Shown here piece after piece: positions 42,730-58,470 of a DNA stretch of 64,000 nt. Position numbers and translations under genes: made by a program. A model generated the notes under the pieces. The model did not search any database. It was not told the DNA's origin and was given only the letters and a program-made list of their open reading frames with translations. Origin of the DNA: Rhizobium sp. L1K21. GTDB lineage: Bacteria > Pseudomonadota > Alphaproteobacteria > Rhizobiales > Rhizobiaceae. Numbering within the stretch: the stretch's first letter is position 1; every line of letters starts with the position of its first letter. The stretch is taken from assembly GCF_024055895.1 (NCBI RefSeq), contig NZ_JAMXLE010000005.1, positions 124,001 to 188,000 on the forward strand, in the 5' to 3' direction.

Positions 42730-44238
42730 ATGAAGGTTCTCAAAACAAGCCAGCCAAATTTGCACCCCGATATCGTTTGGAAACGCATGTTTTCCGAGCT
42801 GGAACGTGGTGACCAGGGCCTGAATATCCAGATCCGCCGCACTTTGGTTTATTCTATTGAAAGCGGCTTCTTGAAAGCAGGCACACGCCTGCCCTCCAGC
42901 CGCAAACTCTCCACCCTTCTGCAGGTGGCGCGCAACACCGTGACTGCGGCCTATCAGATGCTGATCGACGAGGGGTTTCTGATCTCGCGTGAACGCAGCG
43001 GCATCTTTGTTGCAGAAATCAACCGTCAGAGCGCCACCGAAAATAGCACGCGGGACGCTGCCGCCAAGGACTGGCAGGAGCACTTTGCCATTCATCCCTC
43101 CCGCCAGCGGCAGAATAACAAGCCGCGCGACTGGATGGACTACCCCTACCCCTTTCTCTTCGGTCAGTTCGATCCGCAATTCTTCCCCGCCAACAATTGG
43201 CGCGAGGCGGTGCGCGCCACCTCCAGCGTGCAAGAAATCCACGGCTTTCTCGGTGACCGCATAGACGATGACGATCCCGATCTCGTGGAGCAGCTGCGCG
43301 TCCAGGTTCTGCCCCGGCGCGGTATCTTTGCCGAACCCGAGGAAATCATCGTCACGATTGGATCGCAGCAGGCGCTTTCCATTCTCGTACAGCTTCTTGT
43401 GGGCGCAGATACGCCGACCGGCATCGAAGACCCTTGTTATCCCGATACTCGCAACCTCGTGTCGCTGGCCACCAGCAATGTGCACCGGCTGAACATGGAT
43501 GCGGACGGTGTCTTGCCCGATGCGCTGCTTTCGAAATGCCGGGTGGCATTCTTGACTGTCGGCCACCAATGCCCGACAACGGCAGCCATGCCGCTTGCCC
43601 GCCGAAAGATGCTTCTGGAGGCTGCCGAGCGAAACGACCAGATCCTGATCGAAGACGATTACGAGGCCGATCTTTCGCAGGCCACGCAGTCGGAAATCCC
43701 CTGCCTGAAAAGCCTCGATCAAACGGGCCGCGTCATCTATGTCGGCAGCTTTTCCAAGGCGCTCGCGCCGGGACTCAGGGTCGGCTATATCGTTGCGCCC
43801 AAAGGCGTGATCAGCGAATTGCGTGTGTTGCGCCGCTTGCTGCTGCGCCATCCACCCACCAACAACCAGCGCATTCTGGCCGCTTTCATCGCACTTGGAC
43901 ATTATCGCCAGCATATTCAGAAAACCGGTGTCGTGCTGCAAAAGCGTGCTGATCTGATTGCCCGGCTGATGCCGCAAATTCTGCCGCAATGCACCTGGCG
44001 GCGTGATCCGGGCGCAACAAGTTTCTGGGTTGAAGGGCCTGAAGGGCTGGATAGCCGAAAACTGGCGGAGGCCGCCCGCGCCCGCGGTGTTCTCGTTGAG
44101 GCCGGAGCCATCTTCTTTTCCAACCCAGATGCAGGCCGCCGTTTCTTCCGGCTTGGCTTCACCTCCGTCGCCGAAAGCCGCATTGAAGCAGGTTTGCGTG
44201 TTCTTGCCGAAGTGATGGACGACATCTGCATGGGCTGA
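42730..44238 (+). CDS. MocR/GabR-type regulator (winged helix + aminotransferase domain)
   Basis: The 502-residue protein joins a GntR-type DNA-binding domain (residues 15-95, with SIESGFLKAGTRLPSSRKLSTLLQVARNTVTAAYQMLIDEG parts) to an aminotransferase-like domain. PLP-site features are EDDYEADL near residue 315 and YVGSFSKALAPGLRVGYIVAP near residue 340, including the PLP lysine. It lies directly upstream of a class III aminotransferase on the same strand. MocR proteins usually control such genes, for example TauR of Rhodobacter capsulatus, which controls taurine-pyruvate aminotransferase. Confidence 0.85.
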   Translation: MKVLKTSQPNLHPDIVWKRMFSELERGDQGLNIQIRRTLVYSIESGFLKAGTRLPSSRKLSTLLQVARNTVTAAYQMLIDEGFLISRERSGIFVAEINRQSATENSTRDAAAKDWQEHFAIHPSRQRQNNKPRDWMDYPYPFLFGQFDPQFFPANNWREAVRATSSVQEIHGFLGDRIDDDDPDLVEQLRVQVLPRRGIFAEPEEIIVTIGSQQALSILVQLLVGADTPTGIEDPCYPDTRNLVSLATSNVHRLNMDADGVLPDALLSKCRVAFLTVGHQCPTTAAMPLARRKMLLEAAERNDQILIEDDYEADLSQATQSEIPCLKSLDQTGRVIYVGSFSKALAPGLRVGYIVAPKGVISELRVLRRLLLRHPPTNNQRILAAFIALGHYRQHIQKTGVVLQKRADLIARLMPQILPQCTWRRDPGATSFWVEGPEGLDSRKLAEAARARGVLVEAGAIFFSNPDAGRRFFRLGFTSVAESRIEAGLRVLAEVMDDICMG

Positions 44239-44349
44239 AGATCAGCGCAGAGCCAGATTTTGCTTTTTAAGGTGCCAGTTGCACAGATGCTGTTGCGCTC
44301 GCCTCTCATGTGGTATTCGGGGTCCCTCATCGCTTGAAGGAGATACCCC

Positions 44350-45732
44350 ATGGGCATTGCTGCCAACCCCAACGATATGGGCCACGTTGTAGAGGCCGAC
44401 AAACGCCACGTCTGGCACCATCTGACCCAGCACAAACCCTTTGAGACCGTCGACCCGCGCATCTTCGTTGAAGGCAAGGGCTTGAAGCTCTGGGACGTGA
44501 ACGGCCGCGAATATCTCGATGGCCTGTCTGGCGGCGTGTGGACCGTGAATGTGGGTTACGGTCGTGAAAGCATTGCGGATGCCGTGCGCGAGCAGCTGGT
44601 GAAGCTCAACTATTATGCTGGTGCTTCCGGCTCCATTCCGGGCGCCCTCTTTGCTGAAAAGCTGATTGAGAAAATGCCGGGCCTCACCCGCGTTTATTAT
44701 TCCAACTCCGGCTCGGAGGCCAATGAGAAGGTCTTCAAGATGGTGCGCCAGATTTCGCAGCGCCACCATGGCGGTCGCAAATACAAGATCCTTTACCGCG
44801 AGCGCGATTACCATGGCACCACGCTCGGCGCTCTCGCCGCCGGTGGCCAGGAAGAGCGCAAGGCCCAATATGGACCGTTGCCCGAGGGCTTCGTTTCGGT
44901 TCCGCACTGCCTGGAATATCGCAGCCAGTGGGGCGATATCGACAATTACGGTCAGCGCGCGGCTGACGCCATTGAAGAGGTTATCCTGCGCGAAGGCGCG
45001 GATACGATCGGCGCAATCTGCCTTGAGCCGGTCACCGCCGGCGGTGGCGTCATCACGCCGCCGAAGGGCTATTGGGAACGCGTGCAGGAAATCTGCCGCA
45101 AATACGATATCTTCCTGCATATCGACGAAGTGGTTTGCGGTGTTGGCCGCACCGGCAAGTGGTTCGGCTATCAGCAATATGGCGTCGAACCCGATTTCGT
45201 CACCATGGCCAAAGGTGTTGCCTCCGGTTATGCCGCCATCTCCGTGACGGCGACGACCGAGCGCGTTTTTGAAATGTTCAAGGACGACCCGACCGATCCG
45301 CTATCCTATTTCCGCGATATCTCCACTTTCGGCGGTTGCGTCTCCGGCCCGGCGGCTGCGCTTGAAAACATGCGCATCATTGAAGACGAAGGCCTGCTTG
45401 AAAACACCACTGCCATGGGTGAGCGGCTGATGAACAACCTGCACGCATTGCAGGAACGCCACGCCGTGATCGGTGAGGTGCGCGGCATCGGTCTCTTCTG
45501 CGGTGCTGAACTGGTTGCCGACCGCAAGACGAAGGAGCCGGCTGACGAGAAGAAGGTTCAGGCCGTGGTCGCAGACTGCATCGGCCAGGGCGTCATCATC
45601 GGTGCCACCAACCGCTCGGTTCCAGGCTTCAACAACACGCTCTGCCTCAGCCCCGCACTGATTGCCACCGAAGCCGATATCGACGCAATGACTGGTGCCA
45701 TCGACAACGCGCTGACGAAGGTTTTCGGCTGA
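44350..45732 (+). CDS. Class III aminotransferase, taurine-pyruvate aminotransferase-like
   Basis: A 460-residue PLP aminotransferase. The N-terminus (ADKRHVWHHLTQHKPFE), NSGSEANEKVFKMVRQ, EVVCGVGRTGKWFGYQQYGVEPD and the PLP lysine in TMAKGVASGYAAIS resemble Tpa, which transfers the taurine amino group to pyruvate giving sulfoacetaldehyde. The sulfoacetaldehyde enzyme xsc is not in the window, so other omega-amino substrates are possible. The ribosome site GAAGGAG is 6-12 bases upstream. It sits 111 bases downstream of the MocR gene. Confidence 0.75.
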   Translation: MGIAANPNDMGHVVEADKRHVWHHLTQHKPFETVDPRIFVEGKGLKLWDVNGREYLDGLSGGVWTVNVGYGRESIADAVREQLVKLNYYAGASGSIPGALFAEKLIEKMPGLTRVYYSNSGSEANEKVFKMVRQISQRHHGGRKYKILYRERDYHGTTLGALAAGGQEERKAQYGPLPEGFVSVPHCLEYRSQWGDIDNYGQRAADAIEEVILREGADTIGAICLEPVTAGGGVITPPKGYWERVQEICRKYDIFLHIDEVVCGVGRTGKWFGYQQYGVEPDFVTMAKGVASGYAAISVTATTERVFEMFKDDPTDPLSYFRDISTFGGCVSGPAAALENMRIIEDEGLLENTTAMGERLMNNLHALQERHAVIGEVRGIGLFCGAELVADRKTKEPADEKKVQAVVADCIGQGVIIGATNRSVPGFNNTLCLSPALIATEADIDAMTGAIDNALTKVFG

Positions 45733-45953: not shown

Positions 45954-46706
45954 CTACGTCCGCGCCACCTGAAACGGTGCCCAGGACTGGCTGACCGGCA
46001 TGATTTCGAGCGAGTTGATATTCACGTGCGGCGGCTGGGTGGCGACCCAGTGGATGGTGCGGGCAATATCTTCCGGCTGCAGCGGGTTGGCGCCGCCATA
46101 GAGCTTGTCATAGGCAGCCTTGTCGCCGCCCGTGCGCACCAGCGTGAATTCACTTTCCGCCATTCCCGGCTCGATGGAGGTAACCCGCACGCCCCTGGCA
46201 CTGAGATCGGAACGCAGACCCAGCGAAAACTGCTGAACGAAAGCCTTCGTGCCACCGTAAACATTGCTGCCCGGATAGGCCCAGTTGGAGGCAACGGAGG
46301 CCAGATTGACGATCAGGCCCTTGCGCGCGATCAGCGTATCGATCAGCAGGCGCGTGATAGTCACAAGACCGGTGATGTTCGTATCGATCATCGTCTTCCA
46401 ATCTTGCAGATCGCTTGCATCAATCGGCCCGGTGCCAAGCGCAAGGCCAGCATTGTTGACCAGCACATCGATCTCGGCAAATTCCGGCGGAAGGTTTGCC
46501 AGCGCATCCCGCGTTGCAGCCTCGTCGCGAATGTCGAAAGGCATGATGAATACCTTCTCCGGCCCGCCCAGTTCATCTGCCAGCGCTTCAAGCCGTTCCT
46601 TGCGCCGTCCGGTAATGGCAAGCTTCCAGCCATCGGCTGCAAAAGTGCGCGCAATGGCAGCGCCAAATCCGGCCGTTGCGCCGGTGATCAAAACGGTTTT
46701 GGACAT
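45954..46706 (-). CDS. NADP-dependent short-chain dehydrogenase (YdfG-like)
   Basis: A 250-residue SDR. The cofactor motif is ITGATAGFGAAIARTF with Arg residues in TGRRKERLEALADEL indicating NADP preference. The NNAG motif is VLVNNAGLAL, the catalytic Ser is in VNLASVASNWAYPGSNVYGGTKAF and the Tyr-x3-Lys pair follows in VYGGTK. YdfG-type enzymes act on 3-hydroxy acids such as serine and 3-hydroxypropionate; malonic semialdehyde reductase activity is known. The product of the upstream pathway is unclear. It is divergent from the deaminase-like gene. Confidence 0.82.
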   Translation of the reverse strand: MSKTVLITGATAGFGAAIARTFAADGWKLAITGRRKERLEALADELGGPEKVFIMPFDIRDEAATRDALANLPPEFAEIDVLVNNAGLALGTGPIDASDLQDWKTMIDTNITGLVTITRLLIDTLIARKGLIVNLASVASNWAYPGSNVYGGTKAFVQQFSLGLRSDLSARGVRVTSIEPGMAESEFTLVRTGGDKAAYDKLYGGANPLQPEDIARTIHWVATQPPHVNINSLEIMPVSQSWAPFQVART

Positions 46707-46830
46707 GAATTATTCCTTTCATTCTCAAAAGTCGAAAAAAGCGGGGTTATCTGCAATGCGCAAACCAATGTCGGCGTGGGGTCGACGTTCAAATTCACAA
46801 TCAAAAAGCGGCATGAAAGCCTCTGTTTCA
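46695..46830 (+). pseudogene. Possible remnant of a histidine-kinase ATP-binding domain
   Basis: Reading frame 3 of this stretch gives SFSKVEKSGVICNAQTNV followed by GVGSTFKFTIKKRHE. The end matches the G2 box of a sensor kinase (GxGSTFxFTI), and VEKSG-VI precedes it as in kinases, but the N-terminal domains are missing. The frame runs on into the deaminase gene. It overlaps the SDR start by a few bases. A decayed fragment is the simplest reading; an accidental match is possible. Confidence 0.35.
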
Positions 46831-47000
46831 AACTTGGTTTAAAACAAAAACATGACTGTCGTCACCTCTTTGTCTGCATTGCACAGGCAATAAACCGAGT
46901 ACGGCGATTGACTGCATGGGAGCGCATTGCAATAGTTCGTATGCTGTCAATTCCACAGTATGTCCGCCGTCATATCCCCAGCGTTCCAGAGTTTAAATTC

Positions 47001-48296
47001 ATGTTCGATCTTATCATCCGAAATGCCAACCTGCCCGATGGCCGAAAAGGCATCGATATCGGCATCGCAAATGGCAAGATCGGGGCAATCGAGGCCGGTA
47101 TAAGCGCTGAGGCCGGTGAGACCATTGACGCGACAAACCGGATGGTGAGCCCCGCTTTCATCGATCCGCATTTTCACATGGACGCAACACTCTCGCTCGG
47201 CTTGCCGCGCATGAATGTGTCCGGCACGCTTCTCGAAGGCATAGCGCTCTGGGGTGAGCTTCGCCCGCTTCTGACCAAGGAAGCCCTCATTGAACGCGCG
47301 CTGGCCTATTGCGATTACGCGGTGTCGCAAGGCCTTCTGTTCATCCGCAGCCATGTCGACACATCCGACCCGCGACTTGTCACCGTGGAAGCCATGCTGG
47401 AGGTGAAGGAGCGCGTGGCGCCCTATATCGACCTTCAGCTCGTCGCCTTCCCGCAGGATGGCTATTACCGGGCCAAGGACGGCGTGAAATCGCTGGAGCG
47501 CGCGCTGGACATGGGCGTCGATGTGGTTGGCGGCATTCCCCATTTCGAGCGCACCATGCAGGATGGTGCCGCCTCTGTGGAAGCGCTTTGCCGGATTGCT
47601 GCAGAGCGCGGCCTGCCGGTCGACATGCATTGCGATGAAACCGACGATCCCATGTCCCGTCATATCGAGACGCTGGCGGCTGAAACGATCCGCTTCGGCC
47701 TTCAAGGCCGTGTTGCCGGTTCGCATCTCACATCCATGCATTCGATGGACAATTACTATGTTTCCAAGCTCATTCCGCTGATGGCGGAGGCTGAAATCAA
47801 TGTCATCCCGAACCCACTCATCAATATCATGCTGCAGGGTCGGCACGACACCTATCCCAAACGCCGCGGCATGACGCGGGTGCGCGAGCTGATGGCCGCC
47901 GGGCTCAACGTCTCCTTCGGTCAGGATTGCTGCATGGACCCTTGGTATTCCATGGGCTCAGGTGACATGCTGGAGGTCGCGCATATGGCTGTGCATGTGG
48001 GCCAGCTTTCCGGCGTGGAGGACAAGCAGCGCGTCTTTGAAGCGATCACCACCAATTCGGCGAAAACGCTCGGTCTGAAAGATTACGGCCTGACGGTTGG
48101 CTGCAATGCCGATCTGGTCATCCTGCAGGCCGAAGATGTGCTTGAGGCCATCCGCCTGAAACCCGCCCGGCTCGCCGTTCTCAAAGGCGGAAAGGTCATT
48201 TCCCGCACGGCGCCGAAGGAAAGTGAACTTTCCCTGCCCGGTCGTCCGGCAAAAATCGATTTCGGTCGCAACCCCACCTCCTCGACGGCGGAGTAG
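47001..48296 (+). CDS. CodA-like nucleobase deaminase (amidohydrolase), altered active site
   Basis: A 431-residue member of the cytosine-deaminase (CodA) subfamily. Metal ligands are visible in SPAFIDPHFHMDATLSLG, MHCDETDDP and GSHLTSMHSM. In the sequence FGQDCCMDPWYSMGSG the catalytic Asp is kept, but the following Asp of Escherichia coli CodA (Asp314, which contacts the base) is replaced by Cys. The substrate is therefore probably not plain cytosine and may be a modified base. ATG 47001 is chosen because it gives the CodA-type N-terminus; no strong ribosome site is seen. The next gene follows after 5 bases. Confidence 0.8.
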   Translation: MFDLIIRNANLPDGRKGIDIGIANGKIGAIEAGISAEAGETIDATNRMVSPAFIDPHFHMDATLSLGLPRMNVSGTLLEGIALWGELRPLLTKEALIERALAYCDYAVSQGLLFIRSHVDTSDPRLVTVEAMLEVKERVAPYIDLQLVAFPQDGYYRAKDGVKSLERALDMGVDVVGGIPHFERTMQDGAASVEALCRIAAERGLPVDMHCDETDDPMSRHIETLAAETIRFGLQGRVAGSHLTSMHSMDNYYVSKLIPLMAEAEINVIPNPLINIMLQGRHDTYPKRRGMTRVRELMAAGLNVSFGQDCCMDPWYSMGSGDMLEVAHMAVHVGQLSGVEDKQRVFEAITTNSAKTLGLKDYGLTVGCNADLVILQAEDVLEAIRLKPARLAVLKGGKVISRTAPKESELSLPGRPAKIDFGRNPTSSTAE

Positions 48297-48301
48297 CGCG
48301 C

Positions 48302-48586
48302 GTGGGTGAGGCTGACCGGATCATCTCCAAAGAGCGCATTGCCATTCTGGGCGATCTCGGCGCGTCCACATTCATTCCCTGGATTGAGCGCCATGCCCGC
48401 AAGCTCGGCCTCAAAACATCGTTTTCCACAATTGAGGCGCATCGCATCGAGATGGAAATCGAAGGGCCAGAAGCGCTGATTGACGCCATGGAGATGGGTT
48501 GCCTGCTGGGGCCAATCGATGTCTGGGTCGACGAAATCCTGCGTTCTTCCAATGCACGGTCCAGCATTTCCGGCCTGCACACGTGA
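48302..48586 (+). CDS. Acylphosphatase-like small protein
   Basis: A 94-residue protein starting at GTG 48302, 5 bases after the deaminase. Its core resembles the acylphosphatase fold: RIAILGDLGASTFIPWIERHARKLGL, then IEMEIEGPEALIDAMEMGCLLGPIDVWVDEI. The catalytic Arg and Asn of true acylphosphatases are not evident (the loop reads GDLGASTF instead of GxVQGVxFR). A ligand-binding or structural helper for the deaminase is more likely than phosphatase activity (inference). Confidence 0.6.
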   Translation: MGEADRIISKERIAILGDLGASTFIPWIERHARKLGLKTSFSTIEAHRIEMEIEGPEALIDAMEMGCLLGPIDVWVDEILRSSNARSSISGLHT

Positions 48587-48628
48587 AGATCGGTAAGGGC
48601 ATCGCAAGGACACGCGAAATTATACTAC

Positions 48629-48672
48629 TGCACAATTTTTTGGCTATATTGATAACGTCGAATTTTTGTGCA
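48629..48672. promoter_or_regulatory. Inverted repeat TGCACAA ... TTGTGCA in the Rieske promoter region
   Basis: Two perfect 7-bp arms (48629-48635 and 48666-48672) frame an AT-rich segment (TTGGCTATATTGATAAC) that can serve as promoter. The site is 76-120 bases upstream of the Rieske gene. It is a candidate operator for the oxygenase operon. Confidence 0.4.
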
Positions 48673-48747
48673 AGCGTGCCAAGGTTTGTGTCTTTGGAGT
48701 CTCTTCCAGGGCCATGGATGAATTGAATGCATTAAGAAGATTGTCTC

Positions 48748-49401
48748 ATGTTTCCCAATAACTGGTGCAAGTGGACCCCTGTAGCGCTGTCGGCGGATGT
48801 ACCGGCTGGTACTGTCATCCCGGCCTGGACGCCGACTGGCGATGTGGCGCTCTGGCGCAGCCAATCCGGGCAACTCTCTGCCAGTTCCGATCGCTGTCCC
48901 CATCGCGGCATGCGGCTTTCGCATGGCTTTGTGCGGGGTGAAGCGCTCGCCTGCATCTACCACGGCTGGAGTTATGGGCGCGATGGCGCGTGTCTGCGCA
49001 TTCCAGCCCATCCCGACCTGCAGCCGCCCGCCAGCATCAACACCCGCAACCAGATCACCACTGAACGTGAAGGCATTGTCTGGGTTGTCAACGAAGCACA
49101 GGATGAGCCGCCACCTTCGTTTGACGGCTATTGGCCGCTGCGGTCGATGACCTTTCAGGCCAGTATCGCCGCGCTGGAAGCGGCTGCCGGTGCCAAGGCT
49201 GATATCAGCGGATTGATCAGATGCACATTGGGCGGCGAGACCGCATTTCTGCTTGCCGTCACCAAAGGTGAGGCTGAAACAATCGTCCACGTGCTGGCGG
49301 ACAAGAATGCGTCTCTGGCGCAGCGCATTGCCATCTCGCAGGCGGGCGAACAATTGCGCCGCGACGCAGAAAGCGCCGACGCCCTGGAAGGAGCGAATTG
49401 A
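48748..49401 (+). CDS. Stand-alone Rieske [2Fe-2S] protein of a split oxygenase
   Basis: A 217-residue protein with a complete Rieske centre: C50-P-H52 in DRCPHRGMRLSHG and C69-I-Y-H72 in CIYHGWSYG. The N-terminal 100 residues align with the Rieske half of aromatic-ring oxygenase alpha subunits, but the catalytic iron domain is missing. The C-terminal 95 residues (MTFQASIAALEAAAGAKADISGL and so on) do not resemble a ferredoxin or a flavin reductase. It presumably passes electrons to the next gene's product. Stop and next start share a base (TGATG). Confidence 0.8.
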   Translation: MFPNNWCKWTPVALSADVPAGTVIPAWTPTGDVALWRSQSGQLSASSDRCPHRGMRLSHGFVRGEALACIYHGWSYGRDGACLRIPAHPDLQPPASINTRNQITTEREGIVWVVNEAQDEPPPSFDGYWPLRSMTFQASIAALEAAAGAKADISGLIRCTLGGETAFLLAVTKGEAETIVHVLADKNASLAQRIAISQAGEQLRRDAESADALEGAN

Positions 49402-50243
49402 TGTCCGATCCGATGATTGATGAATGGTATCCGGTCGCTCTCTTTTCGAAACTGGATGCGGCTGGCCGCGACACGCTTCTGATGGGACATCCCATTCATG
49501 TGGCCCGCACCGGCTCAGAGAGAGTTGCCGCAACGGAAGCCGATGGACGAAGCCTGCCGGTGCGCATCCGCTACGGCCATGTCTGGACGTCGCTGGGCGA
49601 ACCGAAGAAAGAACTGTTCGACATTCCCGAGGCTGATGAGCCGGGCCGCCGCCTGGTGGATGTCGGTGTAGTGCGTGTGCGCTGCTCGCCGCTGAGGGCT
49701 GTCGAGAACTTCCTCGACATTGCCCATTTCCCCTTCGTGCACACCGACATTCTGGGTGCCGAACCACATACGGAAGTCGAAAAATACGATGTGGAAATCC
49801 GCGAGAAGGAAGACGAGGTCTGGGCAACCAAGGTGAAGTTCTTTCAGCCGCAGGCGGCCAAGTCAGCGGCTGGCGGCATTACGACGGATTACATGTACCG
49901 CGTGCCCGCCCCCACCTGCTCTGTGCTTTACAAGACCTGCCCGCCGCGTCCAGGCGAATGGGATGTCATCACGCTTTTCGTGCAACCGCTGACCGAGGAG
50001 CTGTGCGACGTATGGCCGTGGATGGCGCTTTACGATGATGAGGCGGACATGACCGACCTCATCCATTTCCAGCAGATGATCTTCCTGCAGGACCGCTCGA
50101 TCCTGGAAAACCAGATCCCGCGCCGTCTGCCGCTTGATCCGGGCATGGAAATCCCGACCCGTGCAGACATGACCTCCGTTGCCTATCGGCGCTGGCTGAA
50201 GCGGCACAACTATACATATGGCGCGCAACTGGTGGCCCAATGA
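49401..50243 (+). CDS. Rieske-less non-heme-iron oxygenase subunit
   Basis: A 280-residue protein with the catalytic domain of Rieske oxygenases. D106-x2-H109-x4-H114 in ENFLDIAHFPFVHTDILG is the iron site with the bridging Asp, and QDRSILENQIPRRLP near residue 233 supplies the third ligand. The N-terminal 90 residues keep a Rieske-like fold pattern but lack all four Cys/His ligands. It therefore needs the preceding protein's cluster. The arrangement equals NdmC of caffeine degraders. ATG 49401 follows AAGGAG. The gene ends with ATGA overlapping the GST gene. Confidence 0.8.
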   Translation: MSDPMIDEWYPVALFSKLDAAGRDTLLMGHPIHVARTGSERVAATEADGRSLPVRIRYGHVWTSLGEPKKELFDIPEADEPGRRLVDVGVVRVRCSPLRAVENFLDIAHFPFVHTDILGAEPHTEVEKYDVEIREKEDEVWATKVKFFQPQAAKSAAGGITTDYMYRVPAPTCSVLYKTCPPRPGEWDVITLFVQPLTEELCDVWPWMALYDDEADMTDLIHFQQMIFLQDRSILENQIPRRLPLDPGMEIPTRADMTSVAYRRWLKRHNYTYGAQLVAQ

Positions 50244-50893
50244 AACTCTACGACTACATACTCTCACCCAGTTGCTACAAGGTGCGCCTGCTTGCCGCCC
50301 TGACTGGCACACAACTCACCCTCCGCCCAGTCGATTTTCATCCCGGCGGCGAACATTTGAGCCCGGCACTTCTGGCGCTTAATCCCGCAGGTTCCATCCC
50401 CATTCTGGAAGATGGTGAGCTGGTGTTGACGGAATCGTCCGCCATGCTGGTTTACATTGCGGCCAAGGCCGCACCCGAATGGCTGGGCAGTGGCGACCCG
50501 GCTGAAAGCGCCCAAATCCAGCAATGGTTGTCCTTCTCGCACCGGCTCACCGCATCGCTCGGCGGCGCGCGCCTGGTGGAAATGCTGCTGCGACCGGGCG
50601 ACCTCGCCGCGCTGCAGGCCTCCGGCGTGAAGGCGCTTCGCGAGCTTGAGGCAGCGCTTGCAGTGCAGCGCATGAAGGGCGACATATTCCTCACGGGAAG
50701 CAAGCCGACAGTGGCCGATATTGCCTGCTTCCCCTATGTCGCGCTCGCGCCCGACGGCAGCATAGCACTCGACCCCTACCCGTCCATCCGGCTGTGGCTG
50801 CGTGCCGTGCGCGCGCTTGACGGCTTCATCGAAATGCCCGGCATTCACCGCCTCCACGAATTGAAACCCGAGCCTGCCAAGGAGACTGCCTGA
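50240..50893 (+). CDS. Glutathione-S-transferase-like protein (NdmE-like position)
   Basis: A 217-residue GST-fold protein. The N-terminal thioredoxin-like domain starts MKLYDYILSPSCYKVRLLAAL with the active Ser/Cys region, has NPAGSIPILEDGELVLTESSAML for the cis-Pro and Glu-Ser glutathione contacts, and TGSKPTVADIACFPYVAL in the helical domain. Its start overlaps the oxygenase stop as ATGA, so it is made together with it. NdmE, a GST-like protein, is required for the NdmC oxygenase in Pseudomonas putida CBB5. A similar scaffold role is the inference here. Confidence 0.8.
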   Translation: MKLYDYILSPSCYKVRLLAALTGTQLTLRPVDFHPGGEHLSPALLALNPAGSIPILEDGELVLTESSAMLVYIAAKAAPEWLGSGDPAESAQIQQWLSFSHRLTASLGGARLVEMLLRPGDLAALQASGVKALRELEAALAVQRMKGDIFLTGSKPTVADIACFPYVALAPDGSIALDPYPSIRLWLRAVRALDGFIEMPGIHRLHELKPEPAKETA

Positions 50894-50895
50894 CA

Positions 50896-52278
50896 ATGGC
50901 CGGATACCTGTTCAAGAACTGCGCAGCCATTATCGTTGACGACGGCACCGGCCAGACCGTTCATCGCGATGCAGATATTCTCACCGACGGCCCTGCCATC
51001 AAGGCGATCGGCCAGAACCTCAGCGCCGCACCCCAGCCCGAAGGGACGACCGTCCGCGACGCCACCGGCTGGTTCGTCTATCCCGGCCTTGTGAACACGC
51101 ACCATCATTTTTTCCAGACCTTCGTGCGCAACCGCGCCGATCTGGACTGGACGAAACTTTCAGTCATCGAGTGGCTGGATCGCATTTACCCGATCTTCTC
51201 GCGCCTCACCGAGGATTGCTTCTACCATTCCTCTCTGACGGCCATGGCCGAACTGATCAAGCACGGCTGCACGACGGCTTTCGACCATCAATATTGCTAT
51301 CCCCGCCATGCGGGCAAACGCATTGTCGACCGGCAATTCGAGGCCGCTGAAAAGCTCGGCATTCGGTTCCACGCCGGTCGCGGCGGCAATTCGCTGCCGA
51401 AATCCGAAGGCTCCACCATTCCAGACGAGATGTTGGAGACGACCGATGAATTTATCAACGATTGCGCCCGCGTGATTGATGCCTATCACGACGATGCGCC
51501 CTTCAGCATGCGTCAGGTGGTGGTCTCGCCCTGCCAGCCGGTCAATGCCTATCGCGAGACATTCGTGGAGTCGGTTCGCCTTGCGCGCGACAAGCATGTG
51601 TTCCTGCACACGCATGTTGGCGAAGGCGAAAGCCCGGTCATTGAAGCGCGCCACGGCATGCGCACGGTGGACTATCTGGAAGAGATGGGCTTTGCCGGTC
51701 CGGACACCTTCTATGCCCATTGCTGGGAGCTGACGCATGCAGAGCTTGCCAAGATGGCCGCCAGCGGCACCGGCGTTTCCCACTGCCCCGAGCCCGTCTA
51801 TCTCGTCGGCGCGGAAGTGACCGACATCCCGGCCATGGCCGCACTCGGCGTGCGGGTTGGTCTCGGTTGCGATGGGGCGGCATCCAACGACAATTCCAAC
51901 CTCATGCACTGCATCCATTCCGGCTACATGCTGCAATGCCTAGTCGCTTCCACGCGTCAACATCCCGTGCCGCCACCCGCTGATTTCCTGCGTTACGCAA
52001 CGGTCGAGGGCGCAAGCCTCTTGGGCCGCAAGGATATCGGCAGGCTCGCGCCCGGCATGGCGGCTGATCTTTTTGCCATCGATACGCGCCGGATGGACTA
52101 TGTCGGCACCCGTCATGACCCATTGAGCCTTCTTGCCAAGGTCGGCATCGGCATGGCCACCGATATGACGATGGTCAACGGACGCATCGTCTGGGAAGAC
52201 GGCGAATTTCCGGGCCTCGACGAAGCCAGAATGATGGCCGAGGCCGAAGCTGCACTATCAACAATCACACTCGCATAA
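50896..52278 (+). CDS. 8-oxoguanine deaminase-like amidohydrolase (ATZ/TRZ family)
   Basis: A 460-residue metal-dependent deaminase. The ligands are in VYPGLVNTHHHFFQTFVRN, VFLHTHVGEGES, YAHCWELTHAELAKMA and GLGCDGAASNDNSNLMH. These match the ATZ/TRZ family and in particular 8-oxoguanine deaminases, which turn 8-oxoguanine into uric acid. It starts 2 bases after the GST stop with AAGGAG upstream. Together with the oxygenase it points to a guanine- or xanthine-like substrate. The exact specificity cannot be read. Confidence 0.82.
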   Translation: MAGYLFKNCAAIIVDDGTGQTVHRDADILTDGPAIKAIGQNLSAAPQPEGTTVRDATGWFVYPGLVNTHHHFFQTFVRNRADLDWTKLSVIEWLDRIYPIFSRLTEDCFYHSSLTAMAELIKHGCTTAFDHQYCYPRHAGKRIVDRQFEAAEKLGIRFHAGRGGNSLPKSEGSTIPDEMLETTDEFINDCARVIDAYHDDAPFSMRQVVVSPCQPVNAYRETFVESVRLARDKHVFLHTHVGEGESPVIEARHGMRTVDYLEEMGFAGPDTFYAHCWELTHAELAKMAASGTGVSHCPEPVYLVGAEVTDIPAMAALGVRVGLGCDGAASNDNSNLMHCIHSGYMLQCLVASTRQHPVPPPADFLRYATVEGASLLGRKDIGRLAPGMAADLFAIDTRRMDYVGTRHDPLSLLAKVGIGMATDMTMVNGRIVWEDGEFPGLDEARMMAEAEAALSTITLA

Positions 52279-52298
52279 CCACCAGAAGGGGAACCAAC

Positions 52299-53399
52299 AT
52301 GAACACGAAACTGACACGCAGAACATTGATGAAGACAACGGCCGCAGCCGGTGTTGCCGCCGCTTTTGGCGGTCGCGCTGCATTTGCCGCTGAAGAACCG
52401 TTGGGCATTGCGCTTGTCGTGCCTTCACCGATTGGCGATGTGGGCTGGGGCCGGGCGCTGGCCGATGGGCTTGAGCCGATCAAGGCCGCCTATGGCGACA
52501 AGGTGAAGGTCACGATCCTTGAAAACATCGCAGAAGGCCCCGATGCCGACCGCATCATGAACAAGACAGTCGCCGACGGAAACAAGTTCCTGGTTGCCGG
52601 TTCCTTCGGTTATCAGAACGGCGCCATCCAGCTTGCCAAGCGCATGCCCGACATTTCCGTTCTCCACGCGTCCGGCTACATGGTCGCGCCGAACTTCTCG
52701 CCCTTCGCGGCGAAATATTTCCAGGGCACCTATCTGATGGGCATGGCAGCAGCCGCCCTTTCCAAGACCGGCAAAATCGGCTCGGTTTCGGCTTTTGCAA
52801 TCCCTGAGCTCATCACGTCGATCAACGCCTTCACGCTCGGTGCGCAGACTGTCAACCCGGATATCGATGTCTCCGTCATCTGGGTCAACAGCTGGTTCGA
52901 TCCGGCCAAGGAGCAGGATGCCGCCAAGGCACTGATGTCTCAGGATTGCGACGTGATCTTCTCCAATGCGCAGGACACGCCTTCTGTGATTTCAGCTTGC
53001 GAAGATGCCGGCGTCTATGCTTTCAACCTCAACTCCTCGATGAAAAAATATGCCGAGAAGACCTATCTCGGCTGCGTGCTGACTGACTGGTCGCCCTATT
53101 TCAAGGCGCAGGTCGAGGCCCATATGGCAGGCACGTTCACGGGCGCAAACGCCTTCCTCGGCGTCGAAGACAAGGTTGTTGAGGTCGTTGACTGGAACCC
53201 CGACGTTCCCGCCGACATGATGACCAAGATCAAGGATGTGGAAGCCAAGATCGCAGACGGCAGCTTCTCGCCGTTTAGCGGCCCGATCACAAAGCAGGAC
53301 GGCAGCGTCGGCGTTGCCGAAGGCACAACCCTAACGGACGCCGAGATCGTTGCGATGGATTGGCACGTCAAGGGTGTCTCCACGCCTCTGCCGAAGTGA
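52299..53399 (+). CDS. BMP-family ABC transporter substrate-binding protein
   Basis: A 366-residue BMP/PnrA-type periplasmic-binding protein with a Tat-type leader (LTRRTLMKTTAAAGVAAAFGG). Characteristic blocks are VPSPIGDVGWGRALADGLE, IMNKTVADGNKFLVAGSFGY, KYFQGTYLMGMAAAALS and DVIFSNAQDTPSVISACEDAG. Members bind purine nucleosides or bases. It heads the transporter part of the operon, 20 bases after the deaminase. Confidence 0.88.
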   Translation: MNTKLTRRTLMKTTAAAGVAAAFGGRAAFAAEEPLGIALVVPSPIGDVGWGRALADGLEPIKAAYGDKVKVTILENIAEGPDADRIMNKTVADGNKFLVAGSFGYQNGAIQLAKRMPDISVLHASGYMVAPNFSPFAAKYFQGTYLMGMAAAALSKTGKIGSVSAFAIPELITSINAFTLGAQTVNPDIDVSVIWVNSWFDPAKEQDAAKALMSQDCDVIFSNAQDTPSVISACEDAGVYAFNLNSSMKKYAEKTYLGCVLTDWSPYFKAQVEAHMAGTFTGANAFLGVEDKVVEVVDWNPDVPADMMTKIKDVEAKIADGSFSPFSGPITKQDGSVGVAEGTTLTDAEIVAMDWHVKGVSTPLPK

Positions 53400-53409
53400 T
53401 CGCCCTTCG

Positions 53410-54933
53410 ATGAGCGAAACACTCCTCAGCCTGAAAGGCATCTCGAAAAGCTACGGCCCGGTGCGCGCCAATCGCGGCATTGACCTGGCTGTCGCCCCGC
53501 GTTCCATTCACGCCATTCTGGGCGAGAACGGCGCCGGCAAATCCACGCTCATGAAGCTGATCTATGGCGTGGAAACCCCGGATGAGGGCGAGATCCACTG
53601 GCAGGGGAAACCCATTCGTCTCGCCTCTCCCGCAGAGGCGAGACGCCACGGCATCGGCATGGTATTTCAGCATTTCTCGCTGTTTGAGACCCTGACCGTT
53701 GTTGAAAACATCGCGCTCGTTGTCCCCGGCAAGAAAGCCGACCTGGTGACGCGCATTCGCACCCTCGGGGAAGATTTCGGCCTTGAGATCGACCCTTTTG
53801 CCCATGTGCATGCGCTTTCTGTGGGCGAGCGGCAGCGTGTGGAGATCGTGCGTTGCCTGATGACCAATCCCAAATTGCTCATCCTGGATGAGCCGACATC
53901 GGTTCTGCCGCCGCAGGCTGTCGAGCGCCTGTTTGAAACACTGAGACGCCTGCGCGATGGCGGCGTGTCGATTCTGTTCATTTCCCACAAGCTCGAAGAA
54001 ATCCGGGCGATTTGCGACCACGCAACCATCCTGCGGGCGGGCGAAGTGACCGGCAATGTCGATCCGCGCGAACACGATGCACATGATCTGGCGCAGATGA
54101 TGATCGGGCGTGACATGCCCGAGCCCGCGCCGGTGGTGGAGGTGGAAAAGGGCGAGAAGCGGCTGGAACTGATCGGCCTCAACTATGCGCCCGATGATCC
54201 TTTCGCCGTTGCGCTTTCCGATATCACACTTTCTGTGCGCGGCGGCGAAATTCTCGGCATTGCGGGCATTTCCGGCAATGGACAAAGCGAGCTTGCGCAG
54301 ATCATTTCCGGCGAAATCCGTTTGCCCAACCTCGTCAGCGACGAACTCTTTATCATGGGCAAACCTGCGGGTGACTTCACCCCGGCGCAGCGCCGCAGGC
54401 TCGGCATGGCCTTTGTGCCGGAAGACCGCCTGGGCCGTGGCGCAGTGCCGGAAATGTCGCTGACCATGAACGGTCTTTTGACCGCCCACCCGCTCGGCCT
54501 GTTGAAAAACGGCTTCATCAGTCAGGAAAAGGCACAAGCCTTTGCAGAGGAATGCATCCGCGATTTTGACGTGCGAACGCCCGGCACAGAGGCCGAGGCC
54601 GGCGCGCTTTCCGGCGGCAACCTGCAGAAATTCATTGTCGGCCGCGAAATCATGCTGGCGCCGAAACTGCTCTTCGTCGCCCAGCCCACCTGGGGTGTGG
54701 ACATTGGCGCGGCCACCGCCATTCGCCGGCGGCTGGTGGCGCTTCGCAATGCGGGCATGGCCATTCTCGTGATCTCCGAAGAGATCGAAGAGCTGTTCGA
54801 CATCTGCGACTACATTCAGGTTCTGCATCACGGCAGGCTGAGCAAACCGCTGGTGACGCGCCAGACAAAGCTCGAAGAGGTGGGCCGCTACATGATTGGT
54901 GCCGAAACGGACGCGGAGGCTGCCCGCGCATGA
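53410..54933 (+). CDS. Purine nucleoside-type ABC transporter ATP-binding protein (two ATPase domains)
   Basis: A 507-residue protein with two ABC ATPase domains, as in NupA/RbsA-type proteins. Domain 1 has GENGAGKST, LSVGERQRVEIVRCLM and LLILDEPTSVLPP. Domain 2 has a degenerate Walker A (GISGNGQSE), LSGGNLQKFIVGREI and FVAQPTWGVDIG. ATG 53410 is 10 bases after the binding-protein stop. It ends with ATGA overlapping the first permease. Confidence 0.88.
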   Translation: MSETLLSLKGISKSYGPVRANRGIDLAVAPRSIHAILGENGAGKSTLMKLIYGVETPDEGEIHWQGKPIRLASPAEARRHGIGMVFQHFSLFETLTVVENIALVVPGKKADLVTRIRTLGEDFGLEIDPFAHVHALSVGERQRVEIVRCLMTNPKLLILDEPTSVLPPQAVERLFETLRRLRDGGVSILFISHKLEEIRAICDHATILRAGEVTGNVDPREHDAHDLAQMMIGRDMPEPAPVVEVEKGEKRLELIGLNYAPDDPFAVALSDITLSVRGGEILGIAGISGNGQSELAQIISGEIRLPNLVSDELFIMGKPAGDFTPAQRRRLGMAFVPEDRLGRGAVPEMSLTMNGLLTAHPLGLLKNGFISQEKAQAFAEECIRDFDVRTPGTEAEAGALSGGNLQKFIVGREIMLAPKLLFVAQPTWGVDIGAATAIRRRLVALRNAGMAILVISEEIEELFDICDYIQVLHHGRLSKPLVTRQTKLEEVGRYMIGAETDAEAARA

Positions 54934-56012
54934 TGATGCCGCACCTGATCCGCCGCGAGCGCGCCTCGCTGAAAATGACACTGCTGGCCCCGGTCATCGC
55001 GCTTGCCGTGGCCATCGTGCTCAATTTCGCGCTCTACATTCTCATGGGCAAAAGTCCGCTCGATGTCTTCCACGCCATGCTGCTGGAGCCGATCCTGTCC
55101 TGGTATTCCTTCACCGAAGTGCTGTTGAAAATGGGGCCGTTGCTTTTGATCGCGCAGGGCCTTGCCATCGGCTATCGCGCCAAGGTGTTCAATATCGGGG
55201 CTGAAGGCCAGTTCATTCTGGGTGCAGTCTGCGCCTCTTCGATCCCGGTCTGGTTTCCGCAGGCGGAAGGCGCATGGATCTGGCCGCTGATGCTCCTTCT
55301 CGGTGCGCTTGGCGGTGCCTTCTGGGCCTCAATCACGGCCTTCTGGCGCGTGCGGCTCAATGCCAATGAAATCCTCGTCTCGCTGATGCTGGCGCTGGTG
55401 GCAGAACAGGTGCTGAACTACCTGCTGCTCGGCCCCTGGAAAGACCCGATGGGCTTCAACTTCCCGCAATCGGTCATGTTCCAGATGGATGCGCTCGTGC
55501 CGACGCTGATACCTGGAACCCGCGTCAACGTTTCGCTTCTGATCACGCTTTTCCTGTCGATCCTCGCATGGGCCTTCATGCAGAAGAGTTTTGCGGGCTA
55601 TAAACTCCAGGTCGGCGGTCTTGCACCGGGGGCGGCCCGCTATGCAGGCTTTTCCGAAAGCGGCGCGATCTGGCTCTCGCTGCTGATTGGCGGTTTTGCG
55701 GCCGGTCTTGCAGGGGCCGCAGAAGTGGCCGGTCCGCTTGGCCAGCTGCAACGCTCCATTTCCACCGGCTACGGCTATGCGGCCATCATCGTTGCCTATC
55801 TCGGCGGGCTTCACCCGATCGGCATCATCCTGTCATCCTTCTTCATGGCAATTCTCTATATCGGCGGCGACAATGCCATGGTCTCCGCCAGCCTGCCGAT
55901 TGCAGCCGTGCGCGTCTTCCAGGGCAGCCTGCTTCTGTCATACCTCATCGCTGTAGCCTTCGTGCGCTACCGCATCGAGTGGCCGACAACACCGAAGGGA
56001 GCGCGGGCATGA
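54930..56012 (+). CDS. Purine nucleoside-type ABC transporter permease 1
   Basis: A 360-residue permease with nine or ten hydrophobic helices. AQGLAIGYRAKVFNIGAEGQFILGAV near residue 75 and ANEILVSLMLALVAEQVLNYLL near 150 are typical of BMP-transporter permeases (NupB-like). Start and end overlap its neighbours by four bases each. Confidence 0.88.
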   Translation: MMMPHLIRRERASLKMTLLAPVIALAVAIVLNFALYILMGKSPLDVFHAMLLEPILSWYSFTEVLLKMGPLLLIAQGLAIGYRAKVFNIGAEGQFILGAVCASSIPVWFPQAEGAWIWPLMLLLGALGGAFWASITAFWRVRLNANEILVSLMLALVAEQVLNYLLLGPWKDPMGFNFPQSVMFQMDALVPTLIPGTRVNVSLLITLFLSILAWAFMQKSFAGYKLQVGGLAPGAARYAGFSESGAIWLSLLIGGFAAGLAGAAEVAGPLGQLQRSISTGYGYAAIIVAYLGGLHPIGIILSSFFMAILYIGGDNAMVSASLPIAAVRVFQGSLLLSYLIAVAFVRYRIEWPTTPKGARA

Positions 56013-56920
56013 GCGCCGTTGAGTTCATCCTGGCCAGCATGCTGGCCGCCGCCACCCCCTTTCTGCTGGCCGCCCTTGGCGAACTGGTGGCAGAACGCTC
56101 GGGCGTCATGAACCTCGGTGTCGAGGGCATGATGGCGCTTGGTGCTGCGCTCGCCTTCATCATCGTGCACAATGGCGGCGGGCATTTTCTGGCCTTCCTC
56201 GCCGCCGGGCTCGCCGCAACGGCGCTCTCGCTGGTCTTTGCCTTTGTGGCGCTTGGGTTTCGCGCCAACCAGGTGGCAACAGGGCTTGCCATCGGCATAT
56301 TCGGCCAGGGCCTTTCCGCCCTCTTCGGCAAATCCTATGAGGCGATGACGGTGAAAAGCCTGCCGAAGATGTCCATTCCCGGCCTTTCCGATCTTCCCGT
56401 GATCGGCGGATTGTTCACGCAGGATATCGTGGTCTGGCTGTCGCTCATCGTCACGCTTGTCATCGGTATTGCCTTTGCGCGCTCAAAGGTCGGCCTTGTG
56501 TTGCGCGCTGTTGGTGAGAACCCGAAGGCTGCGCGCGCCATCGGCTATCCCGTCATCGCCATTCGCGTCGGGGCTGTGGCCTTTGGTGGTCTCATGGCCG
56601 GCTTTGCCGGTGCCTATGCGTCCGTGGTCTACACCCCGCTCTGGGCTGATGGCATGATCGCCGGCCGCGGCTGGATCGCCATTGCGCTCGTTGTCTTCGG
56701 CACATGGCTCACCGGCCGCATCTTTCTCGGTGCCTGCCTGTTTGGTGCTGTTTCGCTGATCGGGCTGACAGCGCAGACAAGCGGGCTTGCCATTCCCTCT
56801 CAGCTTCTTTCCAGCCTGCCCTATATTGTGACCATTGTGGTCCTCGGCATTATCTCCTCCAACAAACGGCTTTTGAAGCTGAACGGCATTGCCTCACTGG
56901 GAGAGCCGTTCGAGCGCTGA
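56009..56920 (+). CDS. Purine nucleoside-type ABC transporter permease 2
   Basis: A 303-residue permease paired with the previous one. VAERSGVMNLGVEGMMALGAALAF near residue 28 and RAVGENPKAARAIGYPVIAIRVGAVAFGG near 175 match NupC-like proteins. ATG 56009 overlaps the upstream stop. It completes the nucleoside importer of the oxygenase cluster. Confidence 0.88.
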   Translation: MSAVEFILASMLAAATPFLLAALGELVAERSGVMNLGVEGMMALGAALAFIIVHNGGGHFLAFLAAGLAATALSLVFAFVALGFRANQVATGLAIGIFGQGLSALFGKSYEAMTVKSLPKMSIPGLSDLPVIGGLFTQDIVVWLSLIVTLVIGIAFARSKVGLVLRAVGENPKAARAIGYPVIAIRVGAVAFGGLMAGFAGAYASVVYTPLWADGMIAGRGWIAIALVVFGTWLTGRIFLGACLFGAVSLIGLTAQTSGLAIPSQLLSSLPYIVTIVVLGIISSNKRLLKLNGIASLGEPFER

Positions 56921-57087
56921 AACCCATCGATGCGGCAATCGCTGCTGGAGCCAACCGATTGGCTCTTGAACTAAACGGTAAAACCTGCATCGTGCTGAGC
57001 GGATCATTCGTCAACGAACGCCTTTGAAACATACGAAGACAGCGTGGCGAATGACGCCTACCCGCCATTCTAGAAAAGAGACCTCCG

Positions 57088-58470
57088 ATGTCCACGCTTT
57101 CGAATTCGCTTGCCGCCACCGATATAGCCACTGTCATGCACCCCTACACGAACATGCGCCTGCATGAAGCGGACGGCCCGGTGGTGATTGCCCGCGGTGA
57201 GGGCATTCACGTCTACGACGAAAGCGGCAAGGAATATATCGAAGGTCTGGCCGGGCTTTGGTCCGTGGCCCTCGGCTTTTCTGAGAAACGTCTGGCAGAC
57301 GCCGCCTACAAGCAGATGCTGCAGCTGCCCTATTACCACACATTCTCGTCCAAATCGCATGAACCCTCCATCCGCCTTGCCGATAAGCTGGTGGAGATGA
57401 CCCCGGACAACCTCTCGCGCGTCTTCTTCACCTCGTCCGGCTCGGAGGCCAACGACACGATCGTGAAGATGGTGTGGTTCATGAACAATGCGCTCGGGCG
57501 TCCGAAAAAGAAGAAATTTCTCTCGCGTATCAAGGGCTATCACGGGATTACGGTCGCCTCCGGATCGCTCACCGGCCTGCCGATCAACCACCGCGATTTC
57601 GACCTGCCGGCCATTCCGGTTCGCCACCTTACCTGCCCGCATTTTTACCGCTTCGGTGAAGAGGGCGAGGATGAGAGCGCCTTCACCGCACGCCTTCTGG
57701 CCGAACTGGAAGCCGTGATTGCCGAAGAAGGGGCCGACACGATTGCTGCCTTTATCGGCGAGCCGCTGATTGCCGCCGGTGGCGTGCTGCCGCCGCCTGC
57801 TGGCTATTGGGAAGGTGTTGAAAAAATCTGCCGCGCCAATGACATTCTCATTGTGGCCGATGAGGTCATTTGCGGCTTCGGGCGTCTCGGCACGCCATTC
57901 GGTGCGCAGAAATACAATTTCACGCCGGACATCATGACGACCTCGAAGCAGATCACGTCGTCCTACATGCCGCTTGCTGCCGTCATCTTCTCCGATGCAA
58001 TTTATCAGGCCATTGCCGACAATACGGCCAAGATCGGCAATTTCGGTCATGGCTTCACGGCATCCGGCCATCCGGTGGCAACGGCAGTTGCGCTGGAAAA
58101 TCTGGCAATCATTGAGGAGCGCGACCTGATCGGCAACGCGGCCCGGCTGGAAGCCAAGTTCCAGGCCGGTCTGCGCTCCTTTGCCGACCATCCGCTGGTG
58201 GGCGAAGCCCGTGGCACCGGTCTGATCGGCGCGCTGGAACTGGTGGCCGACAAGCCGACGAAAAAGCTCTTCGACAAGCCCGGCGCTGCCGGTGCGATTG
58301 CCAACAAGATCGGCCATGAAGAGGGCCTGATCTTCCGCTCCATCGGCGACACGCTGGCGCTTTGCCCGCCGCTGATCGTGACGGAAAGCGATGTCGACGA
58401 AATCATGCGCCGGATGGGCAATGCACTTGAAAGGCTGACGCCTGCGGTGAAAGCCGAAGGGCTGAGCTGA
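57088..58470 (+). CDS. Class III omega-aminotransferase
   Basis: A 460-residue PLP aminotransferase of the pyruvate-dependent omega-transaminase group. Motifs are LAGLWSVALGFSEKRLADAA, TSSGSEANDTIVKMVW, SRIKGYHGITVASGSLTGLP, ADEVICGFGRLGTPFG and the PLP lysine in TTSKQITSSYMPLAAV. It is close in sequence pattern to the Ochrobactrum anthropi omega-transaminase. It lies 167 bases after the importer and could remove a side-chain amino group, for example beta-alanine or an aminoisobutyrate from nucleobase breakdown (inference). A terminator follows. Confidence 0.85.
   Translation: MSTLSNSLAATDIATVMHPYTNMRLHEADGPVVIARGEGIHVYDESGKEYIEGLAGLWSVALGFSEKRLADAAYKQMLQLPYYHTFSSKSHEPSIRLADKLVEMTPDNLSRVFFTSSGSEANDTIVKMVWFMNNALGRPKKKKFLSRIKGYHGITVASGSLTGLPINHRDFDLPAIPVRHLTCPHFYRFGEEGEDESAFTARLLAELEAVIAEEGADTIAAFIGEPLIAAGGVLPPPAGYWEGVEKICRANDILIVADEVICGFGRLGTPFGAQKYNFTPDIMTTSKQITSSYMPLAAVIFSDAIYQAIADNTAKIGNFGHGFTASGHPVATAVALENLAIIEERDLIGNAARLEAKFQAGLRSFADHPLVGEARGTGLIGALELVADKPTKKLFDKPGAAGAIANKIGHEEGLIFRSIGDTLALCPPLIVTESDVDEIMRRMGNALERLTPAVKAEGLS

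Follow-up and report, generated by a model that had tools for sequence, protein, structure and literature searches.

The window analysed here, 64,000 nucleotides of Rhizobium sp. L1K21 (NZ_JAMXLE010000005.1, positions 124,001 to 188,000, forward strand), carries a gene cassette built around a Rieske-type oxygenase that is divided over two proteins and accompanied by a GST-like protein, an amidohydrolase and an importer. A previous sequence-only reading had taken part of it for a related but rearranged NdmCDE-like system acting on a modified purine. The open reading frames (ORFs) of that reading were found where it had placed them, and a small conserved gene at 48302-48586 that it had passed over was added to the cassette. 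The features are as follows, in window coordinates.

48302-48586, + strand: small acylphosphatase-fold protein, 94 residues, GTG start, first gene of the cassette
48587-48747, no strand: intergenic gap of 161 bases before the Rieske gene, from the sequence
48748-49401, + strand: Rieske subunit, 217 residues, with an intact Rieske domain and a catalytic-type domain that is reduced and devoid of iron ligands (Pfam Rieske, 70.9 bits)
49398-50243, + strand: catalytic subunit, starting at TTG 49398 or more likely at ATG 49401 (VanA_C, 75.3 bits)
50240-50893, + strand: GST-like subunit, 217 residues, NdmE-like by context (GST_N and GST_C_2 above cut-off)
50896-52278, + strand: NdmH-type amidohydrolase, 460 residues (13 of 13 NdmH positions)
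52299-53399, + strand: periplasmic binding protein of the BMP family, with a purine base as probable ligand (Pfam Bmp above cut-off, TAT_signal below)
53350-54933, + strand: ABC transporter ATPase, the ORF being taken from its first start codon and the real start probably lying past the BMP stop at 53399 (ORF and family matches)
54930-56012, + strand: ABC permease 1 (BPD_transp_2)
55979-56920, + strand: ABC permease 2 (BPD_transp_2)

Counted from the ATG at 49401, the Rieske and catalytic genes overlap by one base and the catalytic and GST genes by four, in agreement with the overlaps first read; two bases separate the GST gene from the amidohydrolase gene, and the BMP and ABC importer genes together span 52299-56920 on the plus strand. 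Conservation of this unit was followed in 80 related loci, the best 80 of at least 546 relatives from one scan, a set that leans towards close kin. Profile and clustering counts were made over 81 stretches, namely these loci and the window. With the window proteins as tblastn queries, the trio of Rieske, catalytic and GST genes was present in 80/80 loci, the BMP gene in 74, the ABC genes in 72 (not counting L050 and L112, where the matches were weak and lay apart), the small gene in 72 and the amidohydrolase gene in 70; some of the misses fall at contig ends. By profile the small gene was found in 79 of the 81 stretches. Outside the cassette span, ORF clustering revealed no other gene family that was widely common, the largest of the unannotated clusters reaching 13 of 81.

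The catalytic family itself is patchily distributed. At E≤1e-10, 52 of the 297 genomes sampled from the order have a homologue, and at 1e-35 so do 10 of 385 genomes of the class, the own genome being included in both samples. Among 72,556 plasmid records, 247 contained the family at 1e-10, of which 128 belong to Rhizobium, and 112 matched at 80-90% identity.

Two alpha subunits with one metal site each

The Rieske ligands C50, H52, C69 and H72 are present as first described, and the C/H/C/H pattern was conserved in 80/80 related loci. Likewise, the iron-site residues D106, H109 and H114 of the catalytic protein are correct when numbered from ATG 49401 (D107, H110 and H115 from TTG 49398). The third iron ligand is presumably D231 (D232 from the TTG), assigned from knowledge of the family and missing from the earlier list. 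All four columns, D106, H109, H114 and D231, are invariant in the 80 loci.

The statement that the Rieske protein is devoid of an iron domain held in one respect and had to be amended in another: its iron ligands are indeed absent, but residues 128-217 form a reduced catalytic-type domain. In a structural model of this protein (predicted local distance difference test, pLDDT, 94), residues 7-216 could be aligned to complete alpha subunits, giving for GxtA a Z score of 18.4 and a root mean square deviation of 2.9 over 208 residues, and for NdmA a Z score of 17.4. Because the whole chain aligns with alpha subunits, the most fitting reading of its final 90 residues is that of a catalytic-type domain reduced in size. 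Complementary losses became visible when both proteins were aligned with L166-L169, four relatives in which one unsplit protein holds both metal sites. In the catalytic protein the ends of the Rieske domain are kept and the stretch with the cluster ligands is deleted, which agrees with the proposed lack of Rieske ligands in this protein, and in the Rieske protein the iron motif is absent. On the sequence comparison of both proteins and the model of the Rieske protein, the two are reciprocally degenerate alpha subunits, each retaining one metal site.

Among solved structures in the PDB, the sequence of the catalytic half is nearest to SxtDIOX and SxtT, followed by NdmA and NdmB; the Rieske half is also nearest to SxtT and SxtDIOX, with NdmA and NdmB more distant. 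By sequence, SxtT and GxtA (SxtDIOX) are the best solved matches of the two halves, and by fold they are also those of the Rieske half; in them, however, a single chain bears both metal sites, and the halves of the window match different parts of those chains. In ordinary trimeric Rieske oxygenases electrons pass between neighbouring subunits. In the split enzyme they would travel likewise, leaving the Rieske cluster of the first protein for the iron held by the second.

Relatives, reductase and the small protein

A wider set of 56 stretches was classified by architecture, with the contig of L122 and L123 counted once; it partly repeats the set of 80 loci (L172 is L098; L159 is apparently L113, and L171 apparently L112). 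The unsplit protein occurred in the four stretches mentioned above, in three of which a BMP gene lies beside it, the fourth being on a short contig. A catalytic gene without Rieske cluster paired with a Rieske-reductase fusion was found in 19 stretches, with a GST gene in 18 of these and none in L128; examples are two Pseudomonas putida plasmids and Sinorhizobium meliloti pSymA. The arrangement of the window, in which the Rieske protein beside the catalytic gene stands alone, was found in 28 stretches, with a GST gene in 28/28. In two of these loci, L125 and L137, a reductase is encoded by a gene of its own in the vicinity, and an additional full-length oxygenase was seen in L125, L141 and L142. 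A cassette of the window's type also lies on Rhizobium leguminosarum pR132505. Finally, four stretches hold a lone catalytic gene.

Several variations were seen alongside these classes. The lone genes of L120, L121, L148 and L164 are extra catalytic genes on stretches without a Rieske protein, and neighbours of those in L120 and L121 cluster with the xanthine-dehydrogenase-like protein, aldehyde dehydrogenase and GMC oxidoreductase of L133. Two Rieske-less catalytic genes accompany one Rieske-reductase fusion and one GST gene in L129, L134, L135, L144, L155, L156 and L157. The reductase part of one fusion (L131:9987-11732) matches Pfam DmmA-like_N with 34.3 bits, the cut-off being 33.

NdmCDE of P. 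putida CBB5 is described as a demethylating enzyme with a catalytic subunit that lacks a Rieske cluster, the cluster on another protein and a GST-like third protein, and homologous clusters of unknown function are reported mainly from Sinorhizobium and Mesorhizobium (PMC4408171). The window shares with it the Rieske-less catalytic subunit, the separate Rieske protein, the GST-like partner and the purine setting. In the two P. putida plasmid clusters found here, proteins answering to the descriptions of NdmC, NdmD and NdmE all occur. Since the same catalytic family pairs either with a Rieske-reductase fusion or with a free-standing Rieske protein, the relatives lend support to the description of the window as NdmCDE-like and rearranged. 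The differences are equally clear. The Rieske domain of NdmD is fused to a reductase, whereas that of the window is split off and free-standing, in accordance with the first reading, and its chain stops at 217 residues. The unit in the window further adds the dead-looking acylphosphatase-fold gene, NdmH and an ABC importer. As the fused reductase is missing, the system is NdmCDE-like and not an NdmCDE. A quick tree of the family required five changes among the three architectures, with several long branches meeting, and would fit fission of a fused protein as well as fusion of free parts. No prior description of a cassette with a split, free-standing Rieske protein was found in listings of open-licence papers. 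The kind of enzyme is known, and its arrangement in this cassette is widespread.

A reductase gene beside the cassette was matched by profile in one of the 81 stretches (L093) and not in the window, so that a shared cellular reductase would have to serve. In the search for a cognate reductase in the own genome, which the sequence-only reading had proposed, the separate reductase of a distant relative gave weak matches at three places. Two of these share one frame that resembles betaine monooxygenase reductase and lies below its family cut-off; the third (L139) could be assigned to none of the NCBIfam families at the threshold applied. The betaine-monooxygenase-like pair, which is below both cut-offs, could lend its reductase. 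The same genome encodes a xanthine dehydrogenase above cut-off (1360 bits) and a protein resembling haem-dependent N-demethylase (PF11927, 186 bits), and the latter might use dimethylamine.

The model of the small protein (pLDDT 88) showed an acylphosphatase fold, with a best Foldseek E value of 2.7e-6 and a template-modelling (TM) score of 0.75, and its match to the Pfam acylphosphatase family PF00708, 18.0 bits, is below the cut-off of 22.5. In the column presumed by eye, from the motif of the family, to hold the catalytic Arg, none of 35 rows has Arg, and one row has it in the next column. R30, five columns further on, is found in 24 of the 35 rows and W27 is unvarying. Judged from these sequences, the catalytic Arg is apparently absent. 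The small gene lies beside 20 of the 28 free-standing-Rieske loci and none of the 19 fusion loci (Fisher p 4e-7); a match in L125, far off and on the opposite strand, was not counted. We considered that the small gene might replace the reductase and rejected this, as the tree provides only three independent pairs and the gene is mostly the same within them. Inheritance within one clade therefore explains the association equally well. The profile finds the small gene in L111 also, and counting L111 as a carrier left the outcome of the tree comparison unchanged. Nothing linking an acylphosphatase with Rieske oxygenase demethylases was found in the open-licence literature.

As to the surroundings of the cassette, the gap at 48587-48747 is a possible promoter site, and no sigma-70-like match was found in it on the plus strand. 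A scan of 46700-57200 gave 5 promoter-like matches against 2.9 expected and 6 terminator-like matches against 10.1 expected, and base composition showed no step. Directly upstream lies a cytosine-deaminase-like gene (46953-48296) above its subfamily cut-off; it was excluded as a cassette member, having only weak matches of 26-27% identity in 3 of 80 loci. Further upstream, 42730-45732 holds a MocR-type regulator, above the cut-off of the PdxR model, and after it an aminotransferase gene; another aminotransferase is encoded beyond the cassette at 57088-58470.

The amidohydrolase and the importer

The amidohydrolase had been taken for an 8-oxoguanine deaminase. This identification found no support: the protein scores 380.2 bits against NCBIfam model NF006055, whose cut-off is 532, and its active site is of the NdmH type. 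NdmH is the N2,N2-dimethylguanine hydrolase of Pleomorphomonas oryzae, published in 2026; it is active on N2,N2-dimethylguanine, from which it removes dimethylamine to give xanthine, and the enzymes of its cluster are described as promiscuous (PMC13054789). The positions compared were taken from the same paper and comprise the CQNN residues C213, Q214, N217 and N165 together with Q74, W85, W93, Y98, Y133, E243, H275, P300 and D326. At 13 of these 13 positions the protein of the window is identical to NdmH in residue and in number, with no difference apparent there. W85, N165, Q214, N217 and P300 are absent from four of four 8-oxoguanine deaminases and four of four guanine deaminases of related loci. 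The features of the four 8-oxoguanine deaminases above cut-off (S214, S217, M165 and no residue at the W85 column) were not seen in the window protein. In 69 of 70 homologues, those of testable length, 12 of the NdmH columns are invariant and Q74 is kept in 68. By its sequence the amidohydrolase is of the N2,N2-dimethylguanine hydrolase type. A pterin deaminase, like the enzyme of Agrobacterium, had also been considered and was dropped once the NdmH residues matched.

Genome surveys tie this enzyme to the oxygenase. At E≤1e-120, NdmH was found in 7 of the 297 genomes of the order, the own genome among them, and in all seven one GST gene separates it from the catalytic gene, a distance of about 660 bases. 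A metagenome-assembled Pleomorphomonas genome (L070) holds the entire cassette. In the main text of PMC13054789 the words operon and Rieske never occur, and the physiological context of NdmH is said to be still under study.

Some loci have another partner in place of NdmH. In L098, L109 and L110 a guanine deaminase follows the importer, with 429, 416 and 434 bits against a cut-off of 375; guanine deaminases above cut-off were also seen in L122 and L130, and others were recognized by similarity (56-93% identity over most of their length) in L146, L149, L165, L166, L168, L174 and L175. That of L164 is a piece of 136 residues of the same gene as in L165, and those of the unsplit relatives L166 and L168 lie within about 7 kb of the oxygenase. 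In the 71 loci with NdmH (at least 60% identity) no guanine deaminase above 50% identity was found. The amidohydrolase of L050 is distant, with 28% identity. Because the partner alternates between NdmH and guanine deaminase, the earlier list of substrates, N-methylguanine, a methylxanthine or an 8-oxopurine, narrows to methylated guanines, with the 8-oxopurine kept as a rival.

The importer had been assigned to nucleosides, and this too was revised, although less firmly than the deaminase. The nearest solved chains of the binding protein are 3s99 (4.3e-81) and AtzT (1.6e-79), the latter a protein that binds guanine and 2-hydroxyatrazine and whose guanine contacts have been listed (PMC6834077). 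Five of seven contacts, S97, F98, E165, W194 and N218, are identical in the window protein; the stacking Y45 of AtzT is a Trp, and N220 aligns with an Asp. These seven columns are invariant in 74 homologues, save the N218 column (71 of 74). With 3s99 and AtzT nearest and the guanine contacts mostly kept, a base importer is likelier than a nucleoside importer, and the BMP protein probably binds a purine base, as judged from these residues.

The same observations bear on the possibility that the substrate is a guanine-based secondary metabolite or a pterin, in which case the nearness to SxtT and GxtA would reflect a guanidine-bearing heterocycle. In its favour, SxtT and SxtDIOX are the best solved matches of both oxygenase halves, and enzymes of the NdmH cluster are promiscuous (PMC13054789); the guanine-type binding protein and guanine deaminase as alternate partner nevertheless suggest simple bases, and we regard this explanation as very unlikely.

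A candidate route for methylated guanines

We consider it somewhat probable that the cassette imports N-methylated guanine bases and breaks them down by means of the split oxygenase and deamination, yielding xanthine. The BMP/ABC transporter would take up the methylated base. The two-subunit oxygenase, presumably in a complex with the GST-like protein, whose role is suggested by NdmE, would strip the N-methyl group as formaldehyde, and NdmH, or guanine deaminase in sister cassettes, would remove the exocyclic amine to leave xanthine; the two steps may occur in either order. Xanthine could then enter ordinary purine breakdown through the xanthine dehydrogenase that the genome encodes. The methyl position that may be favoured is N7, only by analogy, as NdmCDE is an N7-demethylase of 7-methylxanthine.

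A number of points weigh against this route. Substrate, complex and reaction are all inferred, from sequence, a model and analogy, and the likeness to NdmC of CBB5 is one of described make-up and not of direct comparison. For a reductase, the own genome offers weak matches, of which the best candidate lies below its family cut-off. No formaldehyde-detoxification family was widely common beside the cassette in the 81 stretches, whose clusters are unannotated. A catalytic homologue occurs in 52 of the 297 genomes and NdmH in only seven, and one genome (G087) with a catalytic protein of 81% identity has no NdmH at the same threshold of 1e-120. Furthermore, since NdmH alone removes dimethylamine, N2,N2-dimethylguanine needs no N-demethylase.

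One alternative is that the oxygenase strips the N2-methyl groups of guanine stepwise and that NdmH is a parallel, partly redundant route. The tight linkage of NdmH and its activity on N2,N2-dimethylguanine (PMC13054789) are in line with this, and guanine deaminase could accept the demethylated product; two routes to one bond in one operon would however be uneconomical, which is an argument and not a datum, and we hold this alternative to be quite unlikely.

Other observations weigh against demethylation as such. True 8-oxoguanine deaminases above cut-off stand beside the distant relatives L122, L129, L132 and L133, and molybdenum hydroxylases beside some distant relatives would fit ring oxidation. 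The split oxygenase might then hydroxylate a purine carbon, such as C8 of guanine or xanthine, with the amidohydrolase acting before or after it. The P. putida clusters also encode the urate hydroxylase HpxO and another Rieske oxygenase, of full length, which is compatible with such a reaction. Xanthine hydroxylation is however already covered by the xanthine dehydrogenase of the own genome, the amidohydrolase of the window lacks the residues of 8-oxoguanine deaminases, and NdmCDE itself demethylates (PMC4408171). Ring oxidation is unlikely, albeit with an appreciable chance of being correct.

Returning to the demethylation of guanine bases, a bolder and decidedly unlikely proposal is that the cassette consumes N2,N2,7-trimethylguanine and 7-methylguanine from eukaryotic RNA caps, tRNA and rRNA. 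NdmH would take dimethylamine from trimethylguanine and so produce 7-methylxanthine, the known substrate of NdmCDE, which the split oxygenase would convert to xanthine by removing the N7 methyl; where guanine deaminase replaces NdmH, 7-methylguanine would be treated in the same way. On this view the small acylphosphatase-fold protein would count as a novel helper of Rieske oxygenases and might serve to dock the borrowed reductase. No report of 7-methylguanine catabolism of this type was found in the open-licence literature, where the term dimethylguanine hydrolase led to PMC13054789 only, and nothing connecting dimethylguanine with a Rieske oxygenase was found.

In summary, NdmH gains a candidate physiological setting, an operon beside a two-piece Rieske oxygenase, as seen in seven of the seven NdmH genomes among the 297. 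Because the two halves have degenerated in opposite directions and retain one metal site each, electron crossing between subunits becomes directly testable in this enzyme. Finally, an NdmH-like enzyme is named as the ancestor of AtzB (PMC13054789). As relatives of AtzB and AtzT lie side by side in the window (50896-53399), this type of cassette is a candidate source of both and may be the origin of these recently evolved atrazine proteins.

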